Assembly: GCF_040807025.1 (NCBI RefSeq)
Contig: NC_090946.1
Location: forward strand, 82,954,641 to 83,018,640
From: Struthio camelus
Lineage: Eukaryota; Chordata; Aves; Struthioniformes; Struthionidae
Length of the DNA stretch: 64,000 bases
Direction: 5' to 3'
Shown: piece after piece, positions 45,101-62,700 of the stretch
Position numbering within the stretch: the stretch's first letter is position 1
Layout of the letters: each line of letters starts with the position of its first letter
The notes under the pieces: generated by a model
Database searches by the model: none
Told to the model about the DNA's origin: nothing
What the model saw: only the letters and a program-made list of their open reading frames with translations
Position numbers and translations under genes: made by a program

Positions 45101-48100
45101 TCTGAATTTCTACTAGTTCTTCACCAAGTGGAACAACGATTTTTTCCACGCATCGCTCATGAGAATAAGGTTGAATTTCTGGAGAATCTTCAGAACAAAG
45201 CTCTATCTGCGCAATGAGCAAGTTGGAAATAACTTGCTGGACAGCCTATTTGAGAAGTCAAAAGAAAAGATTGTATTTTCTTGTTATCACTCCAGTGATG
45301 CAAGTCAATAGCACGTGAAAGTAACTATTCCCATATTTTAATAGGCCTTGAATATAATAGTAAGGAAAAGATACTTCCTGCCTATGTAATAGATGGATGA
45401 AAAATGAAAGACTCTCCAGTTAAGGACTTTTAGTGTGTAAATAACCTATATGATCAATTTGTGAATGGAAAAATCATGCAATTGCCTTAGCATTTGAGCA
45501 GCAGAACTCTCTTCAGGCTTGGTTGTGCCGTGAAATCTCTCATGAGACATTACCAGGAACATGCTAATACTTTAACAGGTGAGAACTCTTGTAGCCTACA
45601 GCGCATGTCAAGCTGGTACTCGGTAGCCTAAATATATACTACCTGCACCATGACAGAGCTACGGCCACTGCCACACACCACCCCGGAAGATGAACGTGCA
45701 AATACCAACGCACTAGGTCTTGCTGAGTAAGAGCAAGAAAGACTAATAAAACTCTTTTAAAAGTGTTCTCTGTTTAGCTCCTCTTTAATATTGAGGTTTT
45801 AGAGCAGTAAACAATTCACACAGCACTTATTTTTTCAAGCATTAACATCTTGAAAAGCTCCATATAGAAGTCAAACTACACAGCTTTTCCGTAGACTGAA
45901 AACTTCAGCCTTATTTATATTTATCCAATAAACTGCACTCAATAAGAAAGCCACCTTGTATTGAGAGTATGCTCTTTTTGGTTCAAGTAGGTGTGTATTC
46001 TCTAACAGCAAAAGGTATGTTAGCTCTTTCACGATATAATCTTATTTCCTTTAAGAAAGGACAGGAAAAAAGTAAAGTCTATAGCAACAGAAAGACAAAC
46101 ATTCAACAACTAATAGATTGTGAAGTGGTTCAGTTTTTATTTGGAACTCTGAAAGACTTCAATATCCTCCATGTCGTTCAACAGGTACTAAACATAGCTT
46201 CTATTAAAACTGTTACTCTAACCATGAAAGTAGGTTTGACTCACCTTTGTGTCGCTGCCTGGAGTGGCACTTAGGGCCAAGATCCGAAACTGAGTTGTGT
46301 ATTTGCTTAGTTCCCTCACAACCTAAGAGGAGGAAAGTTTCATGTAAATATCCTTACAAGAGATTATCTGCTGATACAAACTATATTGATGAAAATATCA
46401 ACTAAGTGGTAAAGGCTCAATAAAATATCCTAAAAAGAGTGCACCTAAATTCAAATGGGAACCAGAAATTCCTCAGCTGATCATGTTTTTAATCCAAGAA
46501 CGTTTCATCTTGATTATGTTAGCCCAATTCCACTCAACAGAACAAACTTTTTAAGTTATATGAAATGATTTTTCACTTGATTTAACAAAAAGATTAACAG
46601 CATGTTGACCCAAATAAGCTGCCAAAAAATAAATTTGAAGAGCCACTCTACAAAAGTAAATTGCAGATGACTAGTTCCACCTAATCTGAACCCAGATCAG
46701 ATGAAAGCTGCTGTGAAAACCAGCATTCACCGGAGTCTCGCTTAAAATTTTTCAGTAGCAGTTAGGAAAAGAGCTTAATATTCCTTAGAACTCTCAAATT
46801 CTCATCCTACAACCCTCCATAAGACCACAGACGCGACAATCGTTATTTGCTGAACGTTCAAGCAATAGCCAAACTGCCTCTCTACTTCATTTGCCTACAT
46901 AGCTCAACTCCACCAGTGCTGTCAGAGAAGAAACGCTGTTCCTTCTGACCAACAGCCTTGCACTGCACAGAGAGGAAGAAAACAAAATAATTACAAGTAA
47001 TAAATATAAAAGCTACAGAAAATAAATGAATGGAAACCAAAGAAGATAGAAGAATTCAATTTATGTTTATACTAAAAAGCAAGAAAAAAGCCTGGTAATT
47101 TCACAGTTACAGGGACTGACAAGAGCAATTGAAGATTTTTCTCCTCTATAACTAAGACCACTCAAATGTGAACAAATACAAATTTTGGCTCTATGTTACA
47201 GACTGATTAGCATAATAGCAAAATAATTGTTTCATACAGTATCTTGAAATAAAATAACCAATAAGCTTAAATTCTTTGAAAATGAAGTTACTATCGGTTC
47301 TGAAAAATGAAAGAACGATAGAAGACAAAACTGCAACAACAGTGAGCCAACACGTACTATTTTAATTTAGCAAGCTATCATCTTCCTCGCAGCACGTCAA
47401 GTTAGACGAGCATTAAAGAACAACTTTCATCTAAAACCTCCTATAGCTCCTTTCAATCAATTTCTCTAATACCTACAACAGTAACTTTCTCTTGAGTCAC
47501 ATATTATTAGCAGGAGATTAAGCATGATACCACAACACACTATTTCCTAATCAAAGCAAAGCTTTGTTTGAAAGGGAAATCTCCAATTCACTTCACTTAA
47601 GATAAAGAACTTGCACTACCAAAAAAAACCCCACATTTTTTCTGAAAAATACATCCCTCCATTTAGGATTTATTCAAACACTGCATAAATATACTGGTGC
47701 GCACCAGCAAATATGAACACATCTGAAATACAGAGCATACTTGTTTTATATTCATAGCCTCTGTTCAAAACATATTTTGAAACAAAAATTACAATTTTAC
47801 TCAGACATGAATAAAATTTCCATCTAATCTAGTTTTAATATAGTTTGTACTTAAAATCAAGGTGCTGATCACACGGAGCGTTGCTCGCTCTCTGCTCGTT
47901 TTTCAAACGAAGCTGAGGAACTAAAGAACATCATCCGTAAAGCCACGATGCCAGTGACGCTTTCAGGAGAACCGGTGAGCCGTTTTTTGGTAACTGCGTG
48001 CCAAGAGCGGCGTTTGTCCCTCCAGCGTTACCTGACAGTAGGCGTGATTGCCAAGCGCTTTGTGGGCTTCGTCGATAACCAAACACTTAATCTCTGCAGC

Positions 48101-49061
48101 GGGACAGGTTCCGCGGGAAAGATCGTTCACCATGATTTGCGGCGTAAGGAAGAAGACTCTCTTGACAGCCCACAGCTCCCTCCGATCGAGGACCTGCGTT
48201 CCCCCTGGAAACAAAACAAGCGACGTCACCAAGGTGGCCAAGTAAGACCAAAACACGTAAAACCCCCATGTGCTGAGAAGGGCCTGGGGGGGCCGGCTGA
48301 CCGCCATCCACTGGGGGAAATGAGTTTTTTTTAAAAAAAGCATGTATGTTAATGCTATTCCCTTTGCAGGCGAGGAGGAGTGAACGCAATGCGTGGGAAG
48401 GTTGTCTTTTCCAGTGAAACAGTAAGTTTAGAGCCACGGAAAACAGAGCTAGAAAGATCAAGCTGCCCCGCTGTGGACCCCTCGGGGCCTGCAGCCCCCC
48501 CCCCCCCCCGCGAGGGGCCTGCACCGAAGAGCAGGTAACACAAGCAGCCGTTGGGACCGTTGCTTCAGTCAGGGCCAAACCGGTGCGGCCTCCCCACCTA
48601 CCCGTCATCTCGGCCATGTGGCGGGCCGGGATGCCCATGAGGCGGGCGCAGGCCTCCCGCTGCTGCGCCACCAGCGGCTTGGTGGGGGCGAGGAAGAGCA
48701 CCTTGCCGGAGGGGAACCAGCGGTAGAAGTTGTACATGACCACGGCGGCCACGAAGGTCTTGCCCAGCCCGGTGGGCAGGCACACCAGCGTGTTGGCCAG
48801 CAGCGCCGCCCCGGCCATGCGCAGCTGGTAGCCGCGCACCGGCCGGTTGGTGGGGTAGATCCACAGGCCGCCCGCCGCCGCGCAGAAACCGCCCCCCGCC
48901 GCCGCCGCCGGGCCGGGGTCGGCCGCCGCCGCCGCCGCCGCCAGCAGCTCATCGTCGGCCGCCGCCTCCTCCTGCTCCTCCCGCCGCGCCTCGCCGCCGC
49001 CCGGCCGCCGCCAGGCCTGAGGTAACGTGCGCTGCCGCCCGCCGCCGCCGCCGCCCCTCAT
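6106..49061 (-). CDS. FANCM: FANCM, DNA translocase/helicase of the Fanconi anemia pathway (exons 1-11, 3' part outside window)
   Basis: FANCM is an ATP-dependent DNA translocase that remodels stalled forks and anchors the Fanconi core complex in the nucleus. Coding exons read on the minus strand: 49061-48602, 48204-48032, 46322-46245, 45245-45087, 20603-20472, 19677-19545, 15898-15770, 15220-15119, 10164-9971, 9323-9117 and 6340-6106. All have GT-AG borders and consistent phase, giving 667 full codons. Motifs seen: Walker A PTGLGKT (about 96-102), DEAH box VIDEAHK (198-201), motif III LSATPGS (228-234) and motif [10 protein letters not shown] (565-572). The ATG at 49061 is supported by an in-frame TGA two codons upstream and by the GRQRTL stretch also found at the human N-terminus. 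Residues 3-8 are Gly and 41-47 Ala, from GC-rich triplet runs. Intron 4 (24.5 kb) houses an antisense gene. The large acidic exon and the C-terminal ERCC4-like part lie left of position 1. Confidence 0.97.
6924..6975. repeat. Exact 26-base tandem duplication in FANCM intron 10
   Basis: The 26 bases beginning CCTTGATATACAGCTATTTA at 6924-6949 are repeated without change at 6950-6975. Identity of the two copies suggests a recent slippage or duplication event. Confidence 0.95.
7256..7450. other. Isolated GC/CpG-rich patch with (GGCC)n inside FANCM intron 10
   Basis: About 200 bases of CpG-dense sequence, including GGCGGCCGGCCGGCCGGCTG, stand out from AT-rich surroundings. No reading frame here resembles a known protein, and neither strand shows a convincing exon. 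It could be an orphan CpG island (alternative promoter or enhancer) or a GC-rich repeat remnant. Confidence 0.5.
8829..8857. repeat. (CAAA)n tetranucleotide run in FANCM intron 10
   Basis: AAAAAACAAACAAACAAACAAACAACCCC; about four to five CAAA units. Confidence 0.85.
12172..12238 (+). mobile_element. CR1 LINE extreme 3' end
   Basis: GGTTAGATGAGATGATCTCA, AAGGTCCCTTCCAA and ATTCTAGGATTCTAAT resemble the CR1 sense 3' end (GATGATC...GGTCCCTTCCAACC...ATTCTATGATTCTATG). It is a short, heavily 5'-truncated copy in FANCM intron 8. Confidence 0.75.
14606..14633. repeat. (TA)n(CA)n microsatellite in FANCM intron 8
   Basis: Short TATATATA followed by CACACACACAAACACACAC. Confidence 0.85.
16538..16560. 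repeat. (AT)n microsatellite in FANCM intron 6
   Basis: About seven AT units with one G interruption, within an AT-rich stretch. Confidence 0.8.
20604..28539 (-). other. FANCM intron 4, part between exon 5 and the nested gene's island
   Basis: About 8 kb of unique-looking AT-rich intron with a few more GC-balanced stretches (20700-21300, 24730-25210, 27480-28400). No conserved coding motif, RNA gene or confidently classified repeat was recognised. It probably includes cis-regulatory sequence for the nested gene, but this is not visible directly. Confidence 0.6.
28540..29110 (+). promoter_or_regulatory. CpG-island promoter and first exon region of the nested SOUL-domain gene
   Basis: GC content and CpG density rise sharply here within an otherwise AT-rich FANCM intron. 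The island surrounds the ATG at 28708 and the donor GTAAGAG at 28934. A CATAAAG element at about 28670 is a weak TATA-like candidate, but it would leave a 5' UTR of only a few bases, so the start site is uncertain. Homopolymer runs flank the exon: G at 28534-28548, C at 28644-28659 and G at 29095-29108. Confidence 0.75.
28708..39538 (+). CDS. SOUL/HEBP-family heme-binding domain protein, nested antisense in FANCM intron 4
   Basis: Five exons join in frame with GT-AG borders: 28708-28933, 35723-35814, 37147-37288, 38742-38925 and 39367-39538. They give 271 residues ending in TAG. Residues about 105-271 match the SOUL/HEBP fold. Exon 3 has [11 protein letters not shown] and GFMKLMRYI, exon 4 has LGITVPIVT and VAYYLPE, and exon 5 has IIAGYTNP and [10 protein letters not shown]; each has a counterpart in HEBP1/HEBP2. 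Family members bind tetrapyrroles or act in cell-death signalling. Residues 1-75 are an acidic, Ser/Glu-rich extension not found in human HEBP1 or HEBP2 as I know them. No signal peptide or membrane helix is evident, so a cytosolic or nuclear protein is likely. The start has a near-ideal Kozak context (GCGGCCATGG) inside a CpG island. It is a paralog of HEBP1/HEBP2 whose exact name I cannot assign. A fish-type 'soul' family name is possible. Confidence 0.9.
32119..32146. repeat. Perfect 11-bp inverted repeat in SOUL-gene intron 1
   Basis: CCTACTATGAA (32119-32129), a six-base loop, and TTCATAGTAGG (32136-32146). Confidence 0.85.
33803..33925 (+). mobile_element. MIR-like CORE-SINE relic
   Basis: Blocks GGATGCCAAGAGATGTGGGT, TTGATTCCTAGCTCAGTTAC and TTTACTGAGTGACCTAGGCT align in order with the MIR segment GGGTTCGAATCCCGGCTC...CACTTACTAGCTGTGTGACCTTGGGC. 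A tRNA-type B box (GGTTTGATTCC) is still visible. It is very diverged, consistent with an ancient amniote element. It sits in SOUL-gene intron 1. Confidence 0.55.
34460..34800 (-). mobile_element. CR1 LINE internal fragment
   Basis: Contains TCTCCAGGCTGAAGACATCC, TTCTCTCAGCCTCCCTCTAT, CATCCTGGTGGCCCTCCACT, GAGCCCCAAACAAGGCACAG and CACCTCCCTTGACCTGCTGG. These match successive blocks of the avian CR1 ORF2 end and 3' UTR in reverse orientation. It is diverged, lacks the 3' terminal repeat and sits in intron 1 of the nested SOUL gene. The fragment borders are approximate. Confidence 0.85.
38499..38540. repeat. (TA)n/(CA)n microsatellite in SOUL-gene intron 3
   Basis: Two (AT)5 blocks separated by T, then an A-rich spacer and a short CA run, lying about 200 bases before exon 4 of the nested gene. 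Confidence 0.85.
40465..40470 (+). promoter_or_regulatory. Candidate polyadenylation signal of the SOUL-domain gene (ATTAAA)
   Basis: ATTAAA lies 927 bases after the stop codon at 39538 and just before the CR1 fragment at 40492. I saw no canonical AATAAA between the stop and this point. Weak support. Confidence 0.3.
40492..40715 (-). mobile_element. CR1 LINE 3' fragment
   Basis: Starts CATAAAATCATAGAAAGACT, a degenerate form of the CR1 3' terminal repeat (ATTCTATG)n in reverse. It continues through GGTCCAACCCTCTGCT, GAGCATCCCCAGGGAGGGG, TCCAGTATTTGACCACTCTC and CCTAGTATCTAAT, all hallmarks of the avian CR1 3' region. Divergence indicates an old insertion. It lies in FANCM intron 4, about 1 kb downstream of the SOUL-gene stop. 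Confidence 0.9.
41329..41350. repeat. 22-bp near-palindrome in FANCM intron 4
   Basis: TGATCATGCTTAAGCACGATCA, centred on CTTAAG, with one A/C mismatch pair between the arms. Confidence 0.8.
46323..48031 (-). other. FANCM introns 2 and 3 region
   Basis: Intron 2 (46323-48031) and the shorter intron 3 (45246-46244) are AT-rich. No repeats or RNA genes were recognised. GC content climbs towards exon 2 at 48032. Confidence 0.7.
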
Positions 49062-50437
49062 CCTGCCTCAGGGCGCCGCCGCGCGCCGGCCCGCGGGGAA
49101 CACGACCCGCCGCCCCCGGCCGCCACCGCCGCCGCCGCCCCGCATCCTCCCTCAGAGCGGCGGCGCCGCCCCCGGCCGCCGCTTAAAAACCCCGCCGGCC
49201 TCGCGGGGCATGCCGGGAGGTGCAGTCCTGACCCCCCCCCTCACCCCCGGGGCATGCCGGGAGGTGCAGTCCTGACCCCCCCCCTCACCCCCGGGGCATG
49301 CCGGGAGGTGCAGTCCTGACCCCCGCGGGGCATGCCGGGAGGTGCAGTCCTGACCCCCTCACCCGCGGGGCATGCCGGGAGGTGCAGTCCTGACCCCCCC
49401 CACCCGCGGGGCATGCCGGGAGGTGCAGTCCTGACCCCCCCTCACCCCCGGGGCATGCCGGGAGGTGCAGTCCTGACCCCCCCCTCTCCCCCGGGGCATG
49501 CCGGGAGGTGCAGTCCTGACCCCCCGGGGCATGCCGGGAGGTGCAGTCCTGACCCCCCCCTCACCCCCGGGGCATGCCGGGAGGTGCAGTCCTGACCCCC
49601 CTCACCCCCGGGGCATGCCGGGAGGTGCAGTCCTGACCCCCCCCTCTCCCCCGGGGCATGCCGGGAGGTGCAGTCCTGACCCCCGCGGGGCATGCCGGGA
49701 GGTGCAGTCCTGACCCCCCCCTCACCCCCGGGGCATGCCGGGAGGTGCAGTCCTGACCCCCCCCTCTCCCCCGGGGCATGCCGGGAGGTGCAGTCCTGAC
49801 CCCCCGGGGCATGCCGGGAGGTGCAGTCCTGACCCCCCCCACCCGCGGGGCATGCCGGGAGGTGCAGTCCTGACCCCCCCTCACCCCCGGGGCATGCCGG
49901 GAGGTGCAGTCCTGACCCCCCCTCTCCCCCGGGGCATGCCGGGAGGTGCAGTCCTGACCCCCCCTCACCCGCGGGGCATGCCGGGAGGTGCAGTCCTGAC
50001 CCCCCCCACCCGCGGGGCATGCCGGGAGGTGCAGTCCTGACCCCCCCCTCACCCCCGGGGCATGCCGGGAGGTGCAGTCCTGAACCCCCCCCCCCAAACA
50101 CCGCGGGGCATGCCGGGAGGTGCAGTCCCGACCCCCGCGGGGCATGCCGGGAGGTGCAGTCCTGACCCCCCCCTCACCCCCGGGGCATGCCGGGAGGTGC
50201 AGTCCTGACCCCCCCCAAACACCGCGGGGCATGCCGGGAGGTGCAGTCCTGACCCCCCCAAACACCGCGGGGCATGCCGGGAGGTGCAGTCCTGAACCCC
50301 CCCCCCCCCCAAACACCGCGGAGCATGCCGGGAGGTGCAGTCCCGACCCCCGTGGGGCATGCCGGGACAGGCCGGCCGCCGTTCCGCCCGCGCCGCGCGG
50401 GGCACGACGGGAAGGGCGGCGGGCGGCGGGCGGGAAG
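49062..50437. promoter_or_regulatory. Bidirectional CpG-island promoter between FANCM and FKBP3
   Basis: The two start codons are head to head and 1376 bases apart, with no other gene between them. The segment is extremely GC- and CpG-rich and lacks an evident TATA box, as usual for divergent housekeeping promoters. CpG-rich sequence continues into FANCM exon 1 on the left and FKBP3 exons 1-3 on the right. The 49205-50370 minisatellite fills about 85% of it. Transcription start sites cannot be placed from sequence alone. Confidence 0.85.
49205..50370. repeat. GC-rich minisatellite of about 29 units in the FANCM-FKBP3 bidirectional promoter, each unit a ZNF143/THAP11-like site
   Basis: A near-invariant core, GCATGCCGGGAGGTGCAGT followed by CCTGAC, recurs about 29 times by eye. 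C-rich spacers of a few recurring types separate the copies (short CCCCG; CCCCCCTCACCCCCG; CCCCCTCTCCCCCG; CCCCACCCGCG; and CCCCAAACACCGCG near the FKBP3 end). The unit period is about 31-50 bases. The reverse complement of the core, ACTGCACCTCCCGGCATGC, resembles the ZNF143 (Staf)/THAP11 consensus ACTACAATTCCCAGCATGC. The copies nearest FKBP3 are the most diverged (GAGCATGCC at about 50322, GGGCATGCCGGGACA at about 50356). A still more degenerate GGGGCACGACGGGAAG follows at about 50399. Copies are homogenised, suggesting recent unequal exchange. The minus strand is very G-rich and could form G-quadruplexes. Confidence 0.95.
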
Positions 50438-50445
50438 ATGGCGGC
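50435..50445 (+). promoter_or_regulatory. YY1-type motif overlapping the FKBP3 start codon
   Basis: AAGATGGCGGC at the FKBP3 ATG is an exact match to the well-known YY1 consensus found near transcription starts of housekeeping genes, often over the start codon. It also supplies a strong Kozak context (A at -3, G at +4). Binding is inferred, not shown. Confidence 0.65.
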
Positions 50446-53372: not shown

Positions 53373-55209
53373 GTATATATACACACACACAGAGAACTTC
53401 CCATACTGCTGCTATGCAGGAAAAAGGCCTTTATGTCTGACTCTGGATTGGAGTTGGAAAGGGCATAACGTCCCTGGGCTTGTGTGCAGTGCTGCCAAAG
53501 AAACAGTCACCTGGCTTTCTCTTAGTCTCTTGGTGCAGCGCTCCGGTTCTGTATGGCTGCCAGGTATTGGCAGTTTTAGGACACTGAGTAGCAGCTCTTC
53601 TTTGTGAAATGCTGATACAGTGCGCAACTGTTAACAGTAGCTGTGAGGCAGTGTGGGTGAGAGACTTCAAGAAGGACAAGTGCTGAAATAAAACCAGGCC
53701 TTAGGCATCAGCCTTAAAAATAAGGCTAATCCATTGACAATGCACACTAGTAAGGAGAGAGAGGCAAACCAGTTAGTGCCACGTACGTGTTGTCCAGCTG
53801 TGAAACGTTCTGAAACTGCGGATACTTGCATCGAAATGTTTACTCCATCAGTTTACTGGTATCTTCACACCATGAGATCATGAACCCAGAGTATGATGTC
53901 CAGACTAATTTGGGAAAGGGGAACATCCGGTGGGGGAGAATGCTTCCACATATAAAAAGAATATATAAAACTACCTCACAGCGTATACTCTTGGGTGGGT
54001 GAACAAGCTGGGAAGAACTATGCGTTATTGCGCAGGTATTTAGAGAAACAAGTTGGGAAAGCATGTAAAATAGACGTTCTTCAGTGCATTAAGACCCTTT
54101 TTGTTTTTTTAGTGGGATGAAGCTCTCTTAACAATGAGTAAAGGAGAGAAAGCTCAACTGGAAATTGAACCTGAATGGGCTTATGGCAAGAAAGGGCAGC
54201 CTGATGCTAAGTATCCTTTCATGATCAATTACTTATTACTATTTTAAGCAACTTGGAAATGCTTGGCAGAAAAACTGCATTGCAGAGAGGGATATAAAGG
54301 GGGCGTGCTCATTTGCTGCTGGTAGCAGGTTTCAACGTTAAGGAGCACAACACAAAGCTGCTCTGCAGAGCAGCTCCTCTAGGGTGCACTGCATCCAGCT
54401 GACAGTTCCTTGAGAACAAGGATAACTTTCTGTTGATGTCTGCCTGCTTTTTTATTTAAGCTGCTTGTAAATGTTTATTCCCTCAGCACAAATGGATGTA
54501 CTAAGTGTAGTAGGGAGGTGGGAGGAAAAGTTTCTGCTGCTACTGTATAGAGTGGTTAAAACTGGCTAGAAGCTCTGGTCTTCTAGAAGGTTCTGGGATA
54601 CAACTGAAACACAGGAGGATTGAATTGAGCTACCCCTGCAGAACTTTTTGCTGCAGTCGTGTTTGTATTGTCTGTCCACTCTTCCTGCTGGTTTCACAAG
54701 GCTGGGAAGTGATTTTCTCTCCTGCTCTCATCTTGTGTGCTGATAATTTAAATAGTTGTCTAACAGAAGTGGAATGATTTTTTTTTTTGTCTTCAAATAG
54801 GACATTCTAACTTCCCAGAGAAAGACCAGTGCTAGTGTCCCAAAAGGGAGACAGCACTTAAGCAGTTAGTTTAAAACTCAGCTGTTTGTCTTACAAAGAA
54901 TTAGAATAATGAGAACTATGTCTTAGGATAAAAGGCGTAGCTGCAGAACTGGTACTGAATGTCTCTTATGAGCACTCATGTTAAACAGCAGCTGTGATTA
55001 CATACTAAATACAGGATGTTAAAACGGGTAAGTGAAATGTAAAACTGACACCTGAGCAACAGGAGAACAGGTGATAAATCACTTAACATTGATCTATAAA
55101 CTAACTTAATTATGTTTTTTTTTTTTTATAAGCTTCCTTAACTTATGCAAACAGGATACCACCAAATGCAAAACTCTTCTTTGAAGTGGAATTGGTGGAT
55201 ATTGAGTGA
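50438..55209 (+). CDS. FKBP3: FKBP3 (FKBP25), nuclear FK506-binding peptidyl-prolyl cis-trans isomerase
   Basis: FKBP3 is a nuclear prolyl isomerase that binds rapamycin more strongly than FK506 and also binds nucleic acid. Exons: 50438-50545, 50632-50733, 50836-50949, 51166-51301, 52350-52417, 54113-54210 and 55155-55209. All are in phase and give 226 residues (human 224). Residues 1-70 form the basic tilted helix bundle ([30 protein letters not shown]). Residues 71-108 are a Lys/Glu/Ala-rich linker that differs strongly from mammals. Residues about 109-226 are the PPIase domain ([52 protein letters not shown]), ending in [10 protein letters not shown]. The first three introns are tiny (86, 102 and 216 bases) and GC-rich, while the 3' introns are longer and AT-rich. 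The ATG has a strong Kozak context inside a YY1-type motif. The gene is head-to-head with FANCM and tail-to-tail with PRPF39, as in human. Confidence 0.97.
50794..50831 (+). repeat. (CCCCT)n pentanucleotide microsatellite forming the polypyrimidine tract of FKBP3 intron 2
   Basis: About seven tandem CCCCT units run directly into the CGCAG acceptor at 50831-50835. In a 102-base intron this repeat is the whole polypyrimidine tract. The minus strand is (AGGGG)n, a potential G-quadruplex former. Confidence 0.9.
51302..55154 (+). other. FKBP3 introns 4, 5 and 6
   Basis: Introns 51302-52349, 52418-54112 and 54211-55154. Apart from the compound microsatellite at 53296-53392 and short homopolymers, no element was recognised and no C/D-box snoRNA signature was noticed. 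Confidence 0.7.
53296..53392. repeat. Compound (CA)n/(TA)n microsatellite in FKBP3 intron 5
   Basis: Alternating purine-pyrimidine sequence: interrupted CA and CG dinucleotides, then a long CA run, about ten TA units and a second CA run. Such tracts can adopt Z-DNA and are length-variable. Confidence 0.95.
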
Positions 55210-59700: not shown

Positions 59701-62700
59701 AGCACAAATTGTCTGTATACGAACTATTTCTGGCTCATAGTTTTAAACACCCTTAACAATCTGGCATACCTTAAAACCTCCTACACATAAACCATAAAAG
59801 AAGTATGAGACTTAAAAATGCAGTTATTTCTATGGCTGGAATAGACAGAGTCGGCTTACAGAACTGCAACTGATTCAAGTTCTAACAGCTTTTCCTTTTT
59901 TACATATTTGATAATGGCACTTAACTTACTTCAAAGCTTTAAGTCAGAGACAAAAAAGTTACTGGACCGCTGTAAGTGAGACGCGTTTAATGATTCTTGT
60001 TTTTACACGTAGCGAATACAGATCCCAGTAATTTTAAGAACCGTTGAGATTCAAATGCTATAAGAAATAGGAAAGCGTAACTCTCCATTTCACAGGTCCT
60101 AAAAAACAGTCTCTGATGATCATTCTCTGAACTATTTTTAAAGCATTTCCAAAATCCTTTGTATCAGATATAGTTCAGTATAACACATGTTCCCACTACC
60201 AATACTGTGTAACCTATTGGGTTAGTTTAAATTTTCAGGTGAACAGACTTCCTACCCGTTCTCTGCTTTCCTTTTTAAAGAGTCCTGCTCCTGTAGAAGC
60301 GCCTGATGTTCATCATACGCATCCAAAAGCCTAAAGGAAACAAAATTAAACTTTTGCTCACAATTTCCACGTAAAAATTTTAAATACATTTTAAAATGGT
60401 AGCTCATGTATCTATTGCAAACTGCAATAACGGAAACATTTTAAATTAAACTTAATTATAATCAAATTAAAAGTTTCATCAAAATCAGAGTGATCCATCA
60501 TGAAGATAAGAAAGCCAGAAAAACACCATTAGTTTGAAGGGAGATTCCACACTGCATAAAAATGAATGTTATCAGAAACGCTAGCTAAGAAATCCCTAAC
60601 TTGCTAAACTTTTAGCTTACTTAATGCAGTTGTTTCATAAATTTAGTTTATGAATAAATTTTTTAAGACTTGCTTGCGATACAGCTGCTCCTCCCAACAA
60701 TGATTGCATTATGTAGGCTAGCTGTTGATACTGCCCAGAGCAGCACTGATGTTCAGAATACACATTTATTCAAATAGCAAGAATCAGTATTACACAAAAT
60801 TAAAACAATTCTGAAGTACTACCTACAGCCTTTTCCCAAATAGCATGGTGAATTCAATGCAGCCATATTATTATTGATATATCAATAATAGTGGCACTTC
60901 CTAACCAAAATTTAAACAAGTATCTAGATTACTTTTATCTGCTGCATATTGCAATTTACAAAGTAACAAATGAAAACTGAATACTTATTCGAATAAGTAG
61001 AGTAAGTATTTATTTAGAGTCTTATTTTAAGTGAATACTTAGTTCTATCCTCTAGATTACTTGGGAACTTAAAACTACATTTTGTTTGGTCTGTTTATGA
61101 TCCCAAAGTTGCACGCTTCGCTGCCATGCAAGCTCGTATGCTAAGAGTCAGCAGAAATTATGGACAGCTATTCCTAAAAACATACAAAGCATGAAAAACT
61201 AACTTATGGCTAGTCTTCCCAAGCAAGTTAGCTGTAAAATGTAAATAAAAACAAGGGCTTATTTTACCATAGAGAATTAAGGGGAAAAAAGCATGTCCGG
61301 TATTTAATTAAGAAGTTGCACTTCCGGTATGTGAACCTACTGCATAAAAGCATTTTCTTTTTAATGTTTAGACACGCTAACAAAGGTGATGGGATTTTGG
61401 GAACTCAAGCAGCAATTCCGAGGTTATTGAAGAATAAAATTGTATCTCTGTCACAAAACGCTTCACTTCCTCTTTGAAGGACACCCTCCTTCATGCCCTT
61501 AACCTCTTCTTACAATTTTCACTTGCTAAGGTTGACAGCTTTGCTCTATAAAGTGTTAGGTATTTCAGAGAAAAGGAGATTAATTTTCTGAAAAAAGCTT
61601 CCTTTAAAAAAAAAAAAAAAAAAAAAAAAGAGGATGTGGTTCCGGCACCTATCTGTTAAGAGAATTTAGCGCACAAAGAAAAAAAGTTAATGGATGCCCA
61701 ACCTCTTCCCCATCACTTTTACAAGCACATCTTTTGGTGACCTTAATATGGCCATTGCCCATATTAAATCTTACTGGTTTACATCAGAACCAAAATCTTC
61801 AAGAAATTCTACTTTTCGCTGAGAAAATGTAATCCTCATTTTTATAGACAAGGCGCCATGGACAGCTTTATCAAAACAGCTCAAGATGTTTTCTTCATTT
61901 TGCTTGAGATCTCCACTGTACTCCATTTCAAGTAAGTTGAGATAAAGTTTTGTATTTTCCTGTGGGGGGAAGAAAAATGCTTGTATGGCAAGTTGTACAC
62001 CTGTCATGTTATATATTTAACACTACATAATACTATATACACCAAAACTTTTGCATCATAAATATATGCTATGGAATAGTCAATACAAAGATCTTCTCTC
62101 TGTATTGGTCATCTTTGACCTGGTTTGTTTCATAAACAAATAAAAAGCGATCTAATATTACAAAAACAGGTATTACAGTTTAATATTAAGATTTGAAGGG
62201 GCAAATATTTCTGTGGCTATACAAAGTGATTCAAGAATACCGCCTACATTATTCATTTTGTTGGCCTTGAAATGCAAACATTCTTATATTGTTTCAGTTT
62301 CTAGAAGGGGAAACAATAAAGAGTATGAAGTGCACTGCGCATCTGATGAGAAAAGATTTAGAAGTTGTAAACTTGTAGATTTGCAAGCCACAAATTTGGC
62401 AACATCAGTTTAGAGGGACTAGTGTCTCCACGTAGTAATGAAACATTACATACAGTTAGAACATCTGTCATCATTGTTGCCGTATTTAAAAATATGGTTC
62501 AGAAAAAGAAAAAAATACCATGAGTCTGTTTTTATACAGCAATAAGGAAACACATACGGGGTCATTTTCTATGGCTTCTGACAGCACTTCTCTTGCCTTT
62601 GGGAGATTTTTCTGTACTTTGAAGAGATGTCGAGCTAATTTGATGGCATAAAACGACGCTTCACTAATTGATCTGGCATTCCTAATAGCATCTTGAAGGA

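Follow-up and report, generated by a model that had tools for sequence, protein, structure and literature searches.

A tandem array of ZNF143-type sites lies between FANCM and FKBP3 in the ostrich genome

Results

The FANCM-FKBP3 interval contains a tandem array

We analyzed a window of 64,000 nucleotides from the genome of the ostrich, Struthio camelus (C5:82954641-83018640), which belongs to an 84.6-Mb contig and stops about 1.6 Mb short of the contig end. The original prediction had placed an array of repeats between FANCM and FKBP3, and protein matches support this placement. The open reading frame of the first FANCM exon matched PDB 9el5, "Fanconi anemia group M protein," in a phmmer search (E 1.3e-49), and the first exon of FKBP3 was recognized by its BTHB domain. 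The array lies in the interval between the two genes, which has the following features.

48087-49061, minus strand: first coding exon region of FANCM, ATG at 49061 (ORF compared with PDB 9el5)
49202-50413, minus strand (toward FANCM): whole array of 30 STAF/ZNF143-type sites (SBS), 12 exact and 18 with one mismatch in a scan with YWCCCRNMATSCMYYRCR
49202-49219, minus strand: first full SBS, CTCCCGGCATGCCCCGCG (consensus scan)
49324, 49364, 49405, 49684, 49844, 49970, 50011, 50102, 50136, 50223 and 50266, minus strand: starts of the other 11 exact SBS
49208-50341, plus strand: 28 invariant copies of GCATGCCGGGAGGTGCAGT (exact match)
49435-49560, plus strand: 126-bp block with an exact second copy at 49715-49840, a mark of multi-unit duplication
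50351-50368, minus strand: copy 29, an SBS with one consensus mismatch and without the THAP11 half (scan)
50396-50413, minus strand: copy 30, a diverged SBS with one consensus mismatch and without the THAP11 half, 45 bp beyond copy 29
50435-50445, plus strand: AAGATGGCGGC, which we take to be a YY1-type motif, spanning the FKBP3 start codon
50438-50560, plus strand: first coding exon region of FKBP3, ATG at 50438 (BTHB domain PF18410, E 2.3e-9)

The sole Rfam match in the window is SNORD127 (minus strand, 62397-62482); the exons adjoining it look like those of PRPF39, presumably giving the gene order PRPF39-FKBP3-FANCM. A scan of the window for a sequence that we take as the tail of the avian CR1 element gave a single weak match, which chance would explain. 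Two papers, PMC8227816 and PMC8967306, mention both genes of the interval along with ZNF143 or THAP11.

An exact search of the window revealed 28 mismatch-free copies of the 19-nt core GCATGCCGGGAGGTGCAGT, all on the plus strand, for which dinucleotide shuffles gave a chance expectation of 0.01. TRF called the repeat at 49204-50351 with a period of 43, 27.8 copies, and a score of 1531. Core-to-core spacing among the exact copies ranges from 33 to 51 bp, with a median of 42 when decayed copies at 50357 and 50402 are counted. The earlier estimate of about 29 near-invariant copies was therefore close, there being 28 exact cores and two decayed ones. No relatives of the array were found in the viral_contigs or genome_contigs collections (0 matches in either).

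The array has a GC content of 0.76 and a CpG observed/expected ratio of 0.48, and its 500-bp flanks have GC contents of 0.80 and 0.77 and ratios of 1.07 and 0.87. The locus is thus a tandem array inside a promoter CpG island, as in a promoter minisatellite (VNTR). Such repeats can be harmful: according to excerpts of PMC10814315, the CSTB promoter normally carries two to three GC-rich 12-mers, and 30 or more cut expression. An expansion of this style would push core elements apart or close chromatin, lowering expression of the adjoining genes. Full SBS are found at most about 160 bp from each of the two start codons and the first-exon frames beside the array match FANCM and FKBP3, observations on position and sequence rather than on expression that nonetheless make a silencing expansion very unlikely.

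Long open reading frames cross the array. Since GCATGC is palindromic, each of the 28 copies places an ATG on both strands (28 per strand, 49210-50340), and transcripts initiated within the array would carry upstream start codons. Helical phasing was rejected as a property of the array, the phase concentration being about equal for all periods from 10.0 to 11.0, as expected of mere uniform spacing. An array of CTCF sites was rejected as well: the best match to CCASYAGRKGGCRS, which we take as the CTCF consensus, had 3 mismatches in 14 positions, at 6 places. Neither strand of the array holds a canonical G3+N1-7 G-quadruplex motif. G4Hunter scores reached -2.44, with 26% of 25-nt windows below -1.2, and the C/G runs may form some structure.

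Spacers record growth by multi-unit duplication

The spacers comprise 17 exact variants in mosaic order. The longest exact repeat is the 126-bp block (at 49435 and 49715); spacer types also reappear in blocks of three units. Such repeated blocks suggest that unequal duplication copied several units at once, in keeping with the amplification by duplication that had been proposed from the window. The FKBP3 side carries odd spacers (AAACACC type) along with the decayed copies, so that the diverged copies expected at this edge are indeed there.

Exact 126-bp repeats in a single assembly could also arise if copy number had been inflated or collapsed during assembly. The mosaic of spacer variants, the position in the interior of a large contig, and the presence of arrays with other spacers elsewhere in the genome all argue against an artefact, which we regard as extremely improbable.

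The unit matches the STAF/ZNF143 consensus and departs from the THAP11 module

The original prediction ended the motif at GCATGC. The core it described was retained, and its end point was not, since the relevant unit extends beyond GCATGC into the spacer (CGCGGGGCATGCCGGGAG), where some of the copies have the remainder of the STAF/ZNF143 consensus. Compared with the 18-nt consensus YWCCCRNMATSCMYYRCR given in the consulted part of PMC5006282, the reverse complement of the unit reads CTCCCGGCATGCCCCGCG and agrees at all 18 positions in 12 sites, and 18 sites miss one position (n=30). Fifteen of the 28 copies owe their mismatch to a C replacing G at -5, five bases ahead of GCATGC. A reporter site described in the same source misses one SBS position too.

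Comparison with random sequence favored the ZNF143 part of the prediction, the SBS being far rarer in composition-matched simulated units. Simulated 43-nt units with flank-like composition yielded 0 exact SBS in 200,000 and 0.000265 per unit within one mismatch; with array-like composition the frequencies per unit were 0.000025 and 0.000625, respectively. The 25-nt composite within two mismatches occurred at 0.000005 per random unit (flank composition, 200,000 trials). Outside the array, the window contains one further SBS with one mismatch, at 53642.

We also built a weight matrix from 50 sites located elsewhere in the genome, which were of our own choosing, lean towards clusters, and were themselves scored by the matrix they define. 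The 28 array copies scored 35.0-37.5, within the range of the 50 sites (30.7 to 44.5; lower quartile 36.1, median 38.6), and the remaining window scored at most 2.8 (125,182 positions). In the SBS tail, which lay outside the search pattern, C was found at -4 in 86% of the 50 sites and G at -5 in 72%; the complete tail was present in 10 of the 50, compared with 12 of the 28 array copies. The ZNF143 (Staf) reading is thus strengthened both by the consensus matches and by the resemblance to other sites of the genome.

The core of human ZNF143 ChIP sites is TGGGA in the excerpted preprint PMC11118474. All 28 copies have CGGGA, not TGGGA. The older SBS consensus permits CGGGA, and 46 of the 155 TGTAGT-type sites of the genome carry it. 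Because of this substitution we speak of a ZNF143-type site and not of a proven ZNF143 site.

The THAP11 part of the prediction fared worse. The module required by THAP11 is ACTAYR (PMC5006282, in excerpt), and in 28 of 28 copies it reads ACTGCA. A THAP11/HCF-1 hub, that is, a multi-copy Ronin-binding promoter tethering other promoters, has a precedent in the mouse Gsk3a promoter, for which the available text of PMC10329844 reports 11 RBMs and a correlation of loop number with RBM number. By our count the array units satisfy the RBM CTGGGARWTGTAGTY at only 12 of 15 positions, and with the same break in ACTAYR in every copy we consider such a hub improbable.

Other arrays occur in the same genome

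Using the 1.45-Gb assembly (G000, 262 contigs), in which counts of repeats are lower bounds, we found at least 46 exact sites of GCATGCCGGGANNTGTAGT, 109 of GCATGCTGGGANNTGTAGT, and 46 of GCATGCYGGGANNTGCAGT (201 in total), with 0 for each reversed pattern. The TGCAGT form, in which the THAP11 module is broken, accounts for 28 sites in the window array, 7 in an array on C2, and 11 at other places, including one in an array on C33. Same-orientation RBM half-site pairs spaced 15-45 bp apart numbered 216, 27 from the window array, against 0 for the control. Among the approximately 100 matches listed, we counted 38 loci, some of the listed pairs being minisatellites without GCATGC (e.g. C7:15903214). 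Tail-to-tail pairs occurred at 5 loci genome-wide. Further arrays include the following.

C2:539503-539937 (L011 3004-3438): 11 SBS/RBM-like copies of the TGCAGT form, mostly in 44-bp units with GGGCGGGG
C33:133165-133708 (L031 4160-4711): 15 copies, consensus RBM units, spacing 40-42 and 31 bp
C36:746389-751730 (L032 890-6230): about 90 copies, with a unit of 52 bp in about 81 and of 63 bp in 10
C177 (L013): five copies, 62 bp apart, in a unit that includes GCTTCCGGG and GGCCATTTT

The C36 array gave 96 matches within three mismatches across 5.3 kb. The spacers are unlike between arrays, which points to separate origins. The C2 array sits in minisatellite-rich DNA within an intron of a nitric-oxide-synthase-family gene, whose flanking exons match adjacent residues of PDB 1f20 (238-268 and 268-303). 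The C33 array has other minisatellites nearby (154 and 72 bp). A Pfam search of 20 ORFs around the C33 and C36 arrays gave no match. The flanks of the C36 array have GC contents of 0.84 and 0.79 and CpG ratios of 0.79 and 0.81; the ratios are 0.63 and 0.67 for C2 and 0.57 and 0.34 for C33. Inside the arrays, that of the window included, the ratio is lower than in the flanks. The existence of many multi-copy clusters, together with the Gsk3a promoter, weakens the earlier statement that such sites usually number one or two per promoter.

Two other promoter motifs served as controls. ETS core pairs numbered 39,251 (control 16), and the approximately 100 matches listed come mostly from three satellites, at C6:47749681-47757960, C2:172348404-172349952, and C3:142852266-142861915, satellite-like stretches with the ETS core CCGGAAGTG every 20-25 bp or so. 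YY1 pairs numbered 121 (control 0), 60 of the approximately 100 listed belonging to one dispersed family on C5; true tandem YY1 clusters exist too, as at C10:1722313. The C5 family comprises at least 60 identical 55-bp stretches between 5.9 and 14.9 Mb, each with two YY1-type motifs, at intervals ranging from tens of kb to about 1.1 Mb, and appears to represent a single promoter shared by the members of a large amplified gene family.

The ETS and YY1 controls show that this genome duplicates promoter motifs in tandem generally and not ZNF143 sites in particular, which rules out a unique proneness of the ZNF143 motif to amplification. The window array appears to be an extreme instance of something that has happened repeatedly.

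Conservation of the core differs between arrays

Substitutions in the window array numbered 0 in the 19-nt core, compared with 0.051 per site elsewhere. Variable columns were 6 of 35, none within the core (Fisher P 0.005), in a test that, like the other column tests here, treats copies as independent although they share ancestry. Two of the six (-5 and -1) fall inside the SBS, and the contrast for the 25-nt composite is weaker (2 of 25 versus 4 of 10 variable columns, P 0.043). The longest invariant run, 25 of 42 columns, was matched in 2,470 of 200,000 column shuffles. As the copies are of recent common ancestry, the invariant core may reflect homogenization.

The first C36 block behaves similarly over part of the unit. 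There, 79 of 83 readable copies preserve GCATGCTGGGAG unchanged, and the 8 nt that follow it occur in at least 11 versions; variation is 0.7% in the first 12 bases, a window picked after inspection of the data, versus 24% in the TGYAGT part. A 13-column low-variation run in this block was matched in 63 of 200,000 shuffles, and over the full 19-nt core the block ranks only 16 of 52. In the C33 array the whole core ranks first of 40 and the 12-nt window third. The second C36 block has a core that ties with other invariant stretches, and the C18 array, of only 3.5 copies, places its core at rank 5 of 45. The core was no better conserved than the spacer in C2 (rank 27 of 44) and C177 (rank 44 of 62). 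In all, two of the six other blocks show the tendency seen in the window array.

These data bear on whether the array is a neutral GC-rich minisatellite, produced when slippage and unequal crossing-over in a recombination-prone CpG island multiplied any sequence that lay there, a promoter site among it; no more than one or two copies would then be needed, and the others would be passengers. Such an origin accords with the generality of promoter-motif amplification, with the excess of same-orientation over tail-to-tail RBM pairs (at least 38 loci against 5) that duplication predicts, and with the placement of one array in the NOS-family intron. Excerpts of PMC10781513 report recombination elevated at CpG islands and regulatory regions in a PRDM9-less bird, and by our count all three differences from the RBM are AT-to-GC. 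Neutrality accounts less readily for 28 invariant cores among variable spacers, for a C36 block that retains the ZNF143 half while the adjoining half drifts, and for decayed edge copies that, without a THAP11 half, still have 17 of 18 SBS positions. We regard passenger copies as a substantial possibility, although not the one to which we lean.

Discussion

About even chances attach, in our judgment, to the proposal that a single ZNF143 site was amplified by unequal duplication into a homotypic ZNF143 cluster, which probably drives both genes. One STAF/ZNF143 site would have been present in the FANCM-FKBP3 bidirectional promoter, and repeated unequal duplication would have generated the approximately 30 same-orientation copies. 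The resulting cluster would bind ZNF143 and recruit the initiation machinery for FANCM and FKBP3, activating both, with the contribution of THAP11 reduced or lost and with selection keeping the cores intact.

In the excerpted preprint PMC11118474, ZNF143 stimulates initiation, its motif spans 29 bases, and some sites at which the two factors overlap are contested by SP1. ZNF143 could accordingly occupy neighboring units of 33-51 bp side by side, and mixed occupancy is conceivable, as the C-rich spacers resemble SP/KLF sites. A role of the array in looping is doubtful. The original prediction had invoked ZNF143 at loop anchors; excerpts of PMC11687419 describe loss of ZNF143 without effect on looping and an antibody that cross-reacts with CTCF, which weakens that suggestion, and the promoter contacts mediated by Ronin (PMC10329844, in excerpt) would depend on the module that is broken in the array.

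A broader proposal, which we consider unlikely, is that in some arrays selection maintains the ZNF143 half and the THAP11 half is released. Such arrays, the largest being that of about 90 copies on C36, would serve as dedicated ZNF143 platforms or sinks and compete for the factor across the genome. More generally, the data suggest that core-promoter motifs (ZNF143, YY1, and ETS) seed tandem repeats in the ostrich genome.

The arrays constitute a natural dosage series of a widespread core-promoter element, with copy numbers that run within a single genome from 1 to about 90 and with the THAP11 half present or absent, by which output, start-site choice, and use of ZNF143 versus THAP11 can be related to site number. 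The window array also bears on the tolerance of a repeat-filled promoter by a DNA-repair gene, FANCM. A search of titles and abstracts, mainly of non-subscription literature, found no tandem array of approximately 30 homogenized SBS units, and no titles on the FANCM-FKBP3 promoter. Multi-copy RBM promoters and GC-rich promoter minisatellites are already known from the excerpted PMC10329844 and PMC10814315.

Like known STAF/ZNF143 SBS, the ostrich sites agree at 18 of 18 (12 sites) or 17 of 18 (18 sites) positions and are located in a promoter between divergent genes; they differ in forming some 30 homogenized tandem copies in a single orientation. The M4/Ronin (THAP11) motif is approached in its correct geometry beside the SBS and in 12 of 15 RBM positions, but ACTAYR is broken at its fourth position in all 28 copies. 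With multi-RBM promoters of the Gsk3a type, the array shares several copies of a motif class in one housekeeping promoter, whereas it has more copies, homogenized units, and an altered THAP11 half. With the CSTB dodecamer it shares a GC-rich promoter tandem repeat and a copy number, about 30, like that of expanded CSTB alleles, whereas the ostrich unit is longer and carries a factor site.
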